Below the pieces are notes generated by a model. That model saw nothing but the letters and a program-made list of their open reading frames with translations. It did not search any database and was not told the DNA's origin. Source: Methanoregulaceae archaeon (lineage in GTDB: Archaea > Halobacteriota > Methanomicrobia > Methanomicrobiales > Methanospirillaceae). From it: DNA of 34,050 bases. The DNA lies in contig JAHDSI010000080.1 of NCBI GenBank assembly GCA_018432765.1, positions 1 to 34,050 of the forward strand, in the 5' to 3' direction. Of the stretch, positions 6,568-8,621 are shown piece after piece. The number at the start of each line of letters is the position of its first letter. Position 1 is the first letter of the stretch. Made by a program: the position numbers and the translations under genes.

Positions 6568-6972
6568 ATGAAGGATGGGCTGCTGACCGATCGTCAGAAA
6601 GAAGTTCTGAGATACCGGAAGCAGGGATTGACCCAGCAGCAGATCGCCGATATTATATCCACGTCAAAGGCCAATGTCTGTACCATTGAAAAATCAGCGA
6701 TGGAAAATATCAGAAGGGCAAGGGATACGCTGGAATTTCTCTACACTCTGGACGCAAAGCATCTCTGCACAATCCAGGCAGGCATGGATCTTCTCGATGT
6801 TGCGCCGTTCATCTACAGCGAGGCGGAAAAGATCGGAACCAAGGTGAAATATGACACCATCTCCCTGATCAACAAGATCCGGGAATCTTCGCCGGACAGG
6901 TTCAAGGCCCGCCACGTCAGGGATACCATTGAGGTGTACATCAACGACGAGGGCGATCTCTATTTTGGCTGA
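6568..6972 (+). CDS. tfx: Tfx-family DNA-binding protein
   Basis: The protein has 134 residues. The N-terminal helix-turn-helix (LTDRQKEVLRYRKQGLTQQQ followed by IADIISTSKANVCTIEKSA, residues 5-43) resembles sigma-70 region 4/LuxR-type helices and is typical of archaeal Tfx. Tfx of Methanothermobacter binds downstream of the fmdECB (molybdenum formylmethanofuran dehydrogenase) promoter. The remaining residues form the Tfx C-terminal domain. No fmd genes are in the window. The gene is divergent from mtd, so control of mtd or of itself is a reasonable guess but not shown. Confidence 0.85.
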   Translation: MKDGLLTDRQKEVLRYRKQGLTQQQIADIISTSKANVCTIEKSAMENIRRARDTLEFLYTLDAKHLCTIQAGMDLLDVAPFIYSEAEKIGTKVKYDTISLINKIRESSPDRFKARHVRDTIEVYINDEGDLYFG

Positions 6973-7029
6973 AGAGGGATCTCGTTTTATTATTGAAGTT
7001 TTTTCAGAAGAATTGCAGACGTCCTGGCA

Positions 7030-7042
7030 TAGATTTATATTC
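7030..7042 (+). promoter_or_regulatory. TATA element before a non-coding structured region
   Basis: The element tagatttatatt (about 7029-7041) is a good archaeal TATA box with an A-rich BRE side. Its predicted start near 7062 is not followed by a credible gene for more than 500 bases. Confidence 0.5.
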
Positions 7043-7061
7043 AATTTTACCCTATAATAAT

Positions 7062-7515
7062 GGAAGCCTCTATGGATTCTCCGGCAGGTGCATGTCTGTG
7101 ATTCCCCTTATGGGGGGATATCCCGAACTTCTCCTGCCCGTAACTGAGATTCATGAAAGGCGGACTCCTCTCAACTGGGAGGATGAGCCGAGAAGGAGTT
7201 GTGAAGATCACAACGGGCTGACATGGTAGATCTGAAGCGATTGCATGGGTGGACGTCCAAAAAAGACGAGCCCGATCCGTCCCATACGTGACGGACGCAT
7301 CAAGATCAGGATCTGTTCGTGAGACTGGTAGGCTGATACCAGACCCCCGGTTGATCTCCGGGTGGTCTCGATGGAGAGACGCCGCCATATCCTGCCTGAC
7401 GGGATGGTTGATGGCATGATTGCCAGGCCAGTATCCCGGGGTTGTTCAGCGAGAGATGGATACACTCAATCTCGGGTTCCCCGCAGACGATGGTTTCGGG
7501 GAGCAACTTCAATCG
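7062..7515 (+). ncRNA. candidate large structured RNA of unknown family
   Basis: No credible protein frame exists here, but inverted repeats are dense. Examples are GGCAGG/CCTGCC (7083-7088/7133-7138), TCCTC/GAGGA (7166-7183), GTTGTG/CACAAC (7198-7214), CCGTC/GACGG (7276-7293), CGGGAT/ATCCCG (7400-7405/7433-7438) enclosing GGCA/TGCC, and GTTGTTC/GAGCAAC (7441-7447/7501-7507) enclosing CGAGA/TCTCG and CCCG/CGGG. At 7321-7369, GAGA/TCTC closes two hairpins, CTGGT/ACCAG and CCCGG/CCGGG, forming a three-way junction. The SRP RNA helix 8 signature and the conserved RNase P RNA P4 sequences are not present. It may be an independent RNA or a very long L3 leader. Confidence 0.5.
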
Positions 7516-7524
7516 AATTGATCA

Positions 7525-7566
7525 AATTTTGGGTTTTCCCAAAAGAACCAGGATCTTTTGGTCCTG
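7525..7566 (+). promoter_or_regulatory. two hairpins in the L3 leader
   Basis: TTTTGGG-TTTT-CCCAAAA (about 7527-7544) and CAGGA/TCCTG (about 7549-7566) lie between the structured region and the L3 gene. They could be the 3' end or terminator of the upstream RNA, or an autoregulatory leader of the ribosomal operon. Confidence 0.35.
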
Positions 7567-7607
7567 TAGACAGATGAGACATCATTTAAGCAAGGATTGA
7601 TTGAAAC

Positions 7608-8621
7608 ATGCCAAAGATAAACAGGCCACGAAGAGGGTCTCTTGCATTCAGTCCCAGAAAGCGTGCCAAGAGCCAGGTGCCCAAGTACAAGTCCTGGCCG
7701 GAGTACGAAGGGGAACCGATGCTGCAGGGATTCGCAGGGTACAAGGTGGGTATGACGCATGTTGTCATGGTCGACGACCACAAGAACAGCCCCACCGAGG
7801 GGCGCGACATCATGGTCCCGGTCACCGTTCTGGAGGTACCTGCCATGAAGGTTGCAGCAGTCCGCGCCTACATTCGCGATACCAACGGAAAACGGCCTAT
7901 GACAGAGGTGTGGGCGGAGACGCTTGAACCCGCCCTGGCAAAACGGATCACACTTCCCAAGAAGTACAATGGCGAGAAGACACAGACCGCCATAACAGAA
8001 GGGATCGAGTCCGGCAGGGTCATGGATATCTACGCACTCATGCACACCATGCCTGAAGTGGTGAGCGGTATCCCAAAGAAAGTGCCTGAACTCATGGAGA
8101 TCCGAATCGGCGGAGGCACAATCATGCAGAGATTCGAGTTTGCCCTCGGTCTCCTGAACAACGAGGTCACCCTCAAGAACGTGGTCAAGTCAGGCGCTTA
8201 CGCCGACATCACAGCCGTAACCACCGGGAAAGGGACACAGGGCCCTGTCAAGCGCTGGGGAATCTCGATTCGGAAGAGAAAGCACTCGAGGGGCGGGAAA
8301 AAGCGACATATCGGCAACCTCGGTCCCTGGCACCCGCACCACGTGCGCTGGCAGGTCCCGCAGATGGGCCAGATGGGTTACCAGCAGCGAACCGAGTTCA
8401 ACAAACGGATTCTCATGTTCGGTGACAACGGGGCAGATATAACCCCTGCAGGGGGTTTCCTGCATTACGGGGTTGTCAGAAACCCGTATGTTCTCATCAA
8501 GGGTTCAATCCCGGGACCGGCCAAGAGGCTGGTCAGGATACGGCCTGCCGTCAGGCAGGGTGAACACGTGGAGCGCCAGCCCGCCATCGAGCATGTGAGC
8601 GTCCAGAGCAAGCAGGGGTGA
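7608..8621 (+). CDS. rpl3: 50S ribosomal protein L3
   Basis: The protein has 337 residues, archaeal/eukaryotic-type uL3 of the large subunit, which reaches toward the peptidyl transferase centre. The basic N-terminus [20 protein letters not shown], the [13 protein letters not shown] motif (about 40-52) and the C-terminal [18 protein letters not shown] are diagnostic. It is the first gene of the long ribosomal operon. Only a weak ribosome binding site (ggattga) precedes the ATG. The stop overlaps the GGGGTGA that serves the next gene. Confidence 0.97.

Follow-up and report, generated by a model that had tools for sequence, protein, structure and literature searches.

Comparison of the region upstream of rpl3 in the window (the whole 34,050-nucleotide stretch of Methanoregulaceae archaeon DNA analysed here, contig JAHDSI010000080.1) with related genomes makes it very probable that a regulatory RNA resides within a conserved protein gene in many Halobacteriota, where it is under dual selection, and that it was set free as a leader by loss of the gene, probably repeatedly, in Methanomicrobiales. 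An RNA inside a reading frame is usually hard to prove because constraint on the protein mimics conservation of the RNA; here a natural control is available, in that the protein gene has gone and the RNA is still there. The formerly dual-coded and now freed element is probably a ribosomal-protein leader that acts in cis from the untranslated 5′ part of the rpl3-rpl4-rpl23-rpl2 mRNA, as judged from sequence comparison. The results strengthen and extend a borderline Rfam family, RF03135, and give it a wide range in Archaea. If our reading is true, RF03135 is a dual-coding element, and the window would exemplify, in Archaea, a piece of coding sequence that survives purely as regulatory RNA.

In the window, the Tfx gene (6568–6972) is followed by a gap of ~635 bases and then by rpl3 (L3; 7608–8621, plus strand; PF00297, 5.6e-93), the first gene of the operon behind the leader, rpl4 (L4; 8629–9375, plus strand; PF00573, 5.1e-38), the presumed ligand gene of RF03135, and more ribosomal-protein genes. 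The initial annotation of this DNA had reported that the gap holds no credible gene and is headed by a good TATA box. Both points were borne out: reading frames and protein profiles revealed no credible gene between Tfx and rpl3 in the window, and the promoter is conserved in 51 relatives. The TATA box, TTTATATT, lies at 7034–7041 (plus strand), and a stack of the 51 relatives showed that TTTATAT (7034–7040 in the window) is kept ~25 nt ahead of a conserved AATAATTAtGGAAGCC, making a transcription start near 7060 likely. At 7055–7074 (plus strand; blastn block 7024–7074), where transcription presumably starts and the beginning of the transcript is conserved, the stacked upstream regions of the relatives read GGAAGCC...ATATGAGG. 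Across the window's family, the initial ~30 nt of the putative transcript, GGAAGCC[G/T]ATATGAGG.TATCC (7062–7074 in the window), are kept, which gives the leader another small conserved motif at its 5′ end. At the other end, the ribosome-binding region of rpl3, AAGGATTGATTGAAAC (7592–7607, plus strand), is conserved in most relatives (blastn block 7592–7636).

An Rfam covariance search matched the full model (positions 1–85) of RF03135, the L4-Archaeoglobi ribosomal-protein leader, at 7232–7309 of the plus strand with 36.3 bits, above the gathering cut-off of 34.5. The core is already a named family, known yet poorly characterised, and this significant match counts against the description of the RNA as unnamed in the initial annotation. 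A real structured RNA is present, though it differs from the one drawn in that annotation, and its conserved extent is ~150–180 nt instead of 450. RF03135 comes from the work of Eckert and Weinberg in 2020, in which it is assigned to Archaeoglobi, ahead of rplC, rplD, rplW, and rplB, and rated '?', borderline; the L4 label was given by analogy with a different, bacterial leader that has L4 as its ligand (PMC7247131). The structure was later revised in Rfam 15 (PMC11701678). In the window and likewise in its relatives, the match lies upstream of rplC/rplD/rplW/rplB on the same strand, and it consists of a closing helix and two hairpins, all backed by covariation. The Rfam scan of the window matched no other leader family. 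It also bore out the initial annotation in seeing neither SRP RNA nor RNase P RNA, with no match to either in the window and none at E ≤ 10 in 6700–7900. The best C/D box sRNA family, sR7, reached 21.6 bits (E 0.025) over the 5′ hairpin, where 37 are needed, and was rejected.

For comparison, 162 distinct rpl3-upstream regions were collected from Methanomicrobiales. In blastn, the similarity of the window to the other 161 regions was found in the promoter, at about 7165–7342, and in the last 16–20 bases before rpl3, with just scattered matches of <20 bases in 7345–7587. Covariance model R1 (149 positions; its E-values are rough) matched the complete conserved element at 7183–7328 of the plus strand (117.6 bits, model positions 1–149), and it matched 145 of 159 Methanomicrobiales genomes, weakly (25–45 bits) in the most distant families. 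Some Methanomicrobiales of good completeness gave no R1 match (G006, G018, G090, and G092) and could show a replacement of the RNA. A second copy in G099 was discounted, as the match sits at the extreme tip of a contig and probably reflects one locus duplicated by overlapping assembly. The element was present upstream of rpl3, on the rpl3 strand, in 71 of the 72 scanned rpl3 loci, with its 3′ end 172–450 nt (median 251) ahead of the gene. In the nearest relative, Methanolinea sp. SDB (L209), contig LKUF01000319 starts within rpl3, and the leader was not matched in either same-genus genome.

Across the 71 loci, 93.0% of the cells form standard pairs, and 26 of the 35 pairs have changed on both sides. 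Double-change cells numbered 366, against 95.5 ± 10 in shuffled and 45–68 in slid controls; the fitting of alignments A2 and A3 to the structure inflates these pair counts, and relatedness among the sequences was ignored here as in the codon tests described below. The support for a structured RNA nevertheless appears to stand, given the large gap to the controls. A conserved small protein was sought, and no frame was open in more than 20 of the 71 elements. A 113-codon antisense frame runs through the element (7047–7388, minus strand); it is probably not a gene, since no more than 20 of the 71 relatives have an open minus frame. The leader region is non-coding and carries a real structured RNA.

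The core of this RNA consists of a 5′ hairpin, a three-way junction closed by 7229–7235/7306–7313, and a conserved tail, all features lying on the plus strand. Directly 5′ of the core, the minimum-free-energy fold contains a hairpin, TCCTCTC/GGGAGGA (7166–7183), whose place is kept and whose letters vary among relatives; the 45-nt 5′ flank folds with a mean z of −1.73 in 71 relatives, compared to −0.64 for a control flank. The P0 hairpin (7187–7218) pairs GTTGTGA with TCACAAC (7198–7204/7208–7214) and has a conserved internal loop, CCGAGAAGGAG...GGCTGAC. All seven of its inner pairs show changes on both sides, and 95.9% of the cells are paired. P1 (7229–7313), the junction-closing helix, pairs GATC-TGA (7229–7235) with TCA-G-GATC (7306–7313) in alignment A1, and its inner part, P1b (7239–7244/7297–7301), has five pairs, all with double changes. 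Within the junction, P2 (7247–7273) is made up of GGGT/GCCC (7247–7250/7270–7273), whose outer pairs are nearly invariant, and CGTC/GACG (7254–7257/7265–7268), the inner pairs covarying strongly. P3 (7276–7295), TCCGTC/GACGGA, varies in sequence and length, with double changes in all five pairs and 89.1% of the cells paired. Most double changes fall in P1b, P3, and inner P2, each with several pair types. The single-stranded tail (7314–7324) reads TGTTCGTGAGA in the window and TNTTCGCGAGA in relatives. The P4 hairpin, CTGGTA/TACCAG (7325–7342), comes from the minimum-free-energy fold and is often CCGGTGCACRCCGG in relatives, and its flank folds weakly (z only −0.78). The window shares with RF03135 the full 85-position model, the place ahead of rpl3-rpl4-rpl23-rpl2, and the junction with P2 and P3. 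The conserved element of the window has almost double the length, adding the 5′ hairpin P0 and the 3′ tail, and is order-wide in Methanomicrobiales, whereas RF03135 was published for Archaeoglobi (PMC7247131).

The inverted repeats named in the initial annotation are present (GAGAC/GTCTC, 7321–7325/7365–7369; GTTGTTC/GAGCAAC, 7441–7447/7501–7507), but their mere presence is weak evidence, and the 7441/7501 helix has no counterpart in relatives. Alignment of relatives and the search for compensatory changes upheld the core at 7183–7328 and not the region beyond 7345. A three-way junction had been placed at 7321–7369. The repeat exists there, and 17 of the 54 relatives have its closing helix, where chance alone would give 9.2; the junction that is conserved and shows compensatory change lies elsewhere, at 7229–7313. 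The leader as a whole (7062–7600) has a more stable fold than any of 100 dinucleotide-shuffled versions (z −3.07). The segment 7345–7600, which has no recognisable relative, also folds far better than shuffles (z −2.91), and its structure may be lineage-specific.

A search of the phylum found the element at a rough E-value of ≤ 1 in 265 of 393 genomes. Twenty outgroup matches were taken for a detailed look. All 20 lie 333–462 nt before rpl3, and all 20 translate in frame as REGVV...VGSD..WVDIG..PVPL...KGERVTVRIFSR. The one outgroup protein that was scanned is PF02598, a SPOUT RNA methyltransferase (3.4e-63); by profile search, the PF02598 gene occurs in 129 of 256 phylum genomes. RF03135 itself matches 33 of 40 tested gene-bearing loci, with up to 74 bits, indicating that the Rfam family sits within the PF02598 gene there. 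The control genome, Haloferax volcanii, has both the RNA and the PF02598 gene. The main text of the founding paper of RF03135 (PMC7247131) does not mention an overlap with PF02598. A literature search, the supplement of that paper aside, found no description of the overlap, nor of the extended form and history of RF03135 as a dual-coding element.

In gene-bearing genomes, the coding sequence is constrained beyond the protein. Synonymous likeness was measured against gene-specific codon use in 65 genes, nearly all from outgroups. Synonymous conservation was higher inside the element than outside, both in the 38 genes with GC <60% (mean z 8.31 versus 1.13, p 6e-8) and in the 27 GC-rich genes (5.15 versus 2.67, p 1.5e-4). 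The frozen codons TCG, AGG, xCT, and GTC are the letters retained in gene-less Methanomicrobiales, and the tail letters are the frozen codons AGG-RTC-TNT-TCG-CGA of the gene-bearing relatives. Outgroup P2 forms the same hairpin from unrelated inner helices (TGTCG/CGACA, ACTCG/CGAGT, and TTGC/GCAA). In 45 outgroup sequences, 88.1% of the cells were paired, and 195 double-change cells were counted against 70 ± 7.7 in shuffled and 21–63 in slid controls. Co-change of the Ser/Pro and Ile/Val codons in P1 of the outgroups is directed toward base pairing (only p 0.03, uncorrected for relatedness).

Within Methanomicrobiales, 78 of 80 genomes lack PF02598, and its profile had no match across the window's own assembly (86% complete). 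PF02598 motifs are kept in just three of the 162 rpl3-upstream regions; elsewhere only two short motifs were found, coinciding with the element in some loci. The three loci, L031 (G123), L166 (G194), and L032 (G114), have open frames, ...YREGVVLSHNGMIDVGSDECAWVDVGATSPLPLD...AGRRITVRIYSRDG, that enclose the whole RNA including P0. P0 is an insertion relative to the outgroup proteins, which dates its origin to a time when the gene was intact. The RNA within the gene in relatives, together with the three loci that have both, points to double encoding, with the RNA outliving the gene. In gene-less loci, the P1 arms are separated by lengths that fall into all three frames (26/23/18), and the old frame contains a stop in 47 of 61 elements; in loci with the gene, the length is divisible by three in 45 of 46 cases, the exception, L032 with its open frame, being taken for a mis-picked motif. 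On the L3 protein tree, gene presence requires three changes in the bootstrap trees (range 3–3), and the well-supported branches alone force two, the backbone being poorly resolved. If the gene was not regained, this pattern would mean that it was lost several times and that the RNA was retained each time.

The suggestion in the initial annotation that the region could be a leader regulating ribosomal protein synthesis gains support from the RF03135 match, the fixed place upstream of rpl3, and the covariation; nothing in the analysis points to its alternative of a stable RNA. The rpl3-rpl4-rpl23-rpl2 operon is the constant partner of the element, and we infer autogenous control by one of the operon's proteins that binds rRNA. 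When such a protein is in excess over rRNA, it would bind the leader RNA, and operon expression would fall. The ligand would be L4 according to the naming in Rfam, with L3 equally possible. Direct masking of the L3 ribosome-binding site is the less likely mode, because the element ends about 250 nt (median 251) before the rpl3 start. This distance and the lack of an enriched U-tract terminator downstream (T-runs after the element in 7 loci versus 6.0 expected) favour an influence on how the transcript is elongated, processed or degraded, or on initiation from a distance. With regard to mimicry of 23S rRNA, R1 had no match in three 23S regions, and shared 9–11-mers were about as many as in shuffled elements. 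Control of this major archaeal ribosomal-protein operon is directly testable in Haloferax.

The conserved block is homologous to a PF02598 coding segment and occupies the place of the gene in relatives, as would be expected if it were a mere decaying remnant of a recently lost gene with its structure as a by-product. We consider this very improbable, because ~150 nt of a ~800-nt gene are recognisable in nearly all 162 loci even though the L3 proteins of those genomes are just 61–80% identical to that of the window, because double changes preserve the pairing and the frame is not preserved, and because the outgroup genes show the same nucleotide-level constraint. Equally improbable is a conserved signal at the DNA level, such as an internal promoter or a protein site: short words like GTCAGGATCTnTTCGCGA are indeed very conserved, but helices changed in a compensatory manner in two separate alignments, and a good promoter already exists ~150 nt upstream of the element.

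There is little to recommend the SPOUT methyltransferase as the ligand, recognising in its own mRNA a structure that imitates the rRNA on which it acts. The element does lie within that gene in most Halobacteriota having the gene, and its homologues in yeast, Upa1/Upa2, belong to the very early pre-60S factors (PMC8994135); however, genomes that lack PF02598 still have the RNA, with covariation, which argues against the enzyme as a needed ligand. It could have been an ancestral second ligand. A separate trans-acting stable RNA, cut from the leader or sharing its promoter, is unlikely, if slightly less so. It would suit the region's own promoter, the compact fold, and the weak C/D-box-like sR7 score over the 5′ hairpin; that score falls short of the 37 bits needed, the scored sequence pairs as a covarying hairpin, and in every examined locus the element is on the rpl3 strand ahead of rpl3.

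The proposed cis-acting leader is comparable in its placement to the bacterial S10-operon L4 leader, which likewise heads an operon with rpl3-rpl4-rpl23-rpl2 and is presumed to mediate autogenous control by L4; the archaeal element differs from it in lacking an enriched terminator-like T-run downstream. The archaeal S15 and eL15 leaders (Eckert and Weinberg 2020) and the L7Ae k-turn targets (PMC5539422) are also mRNA elements and presumed targets of ribosomal proteins; they belong to a different operon. Near the ribosomal-protein operon, the window also carries genes of methanogenesis, namely that for Mtd (PF01993; 5513–6352, minus strand) and one for a luciferase-like reductase that is probably Mer (PF00296; 3500–4489, plus strand).
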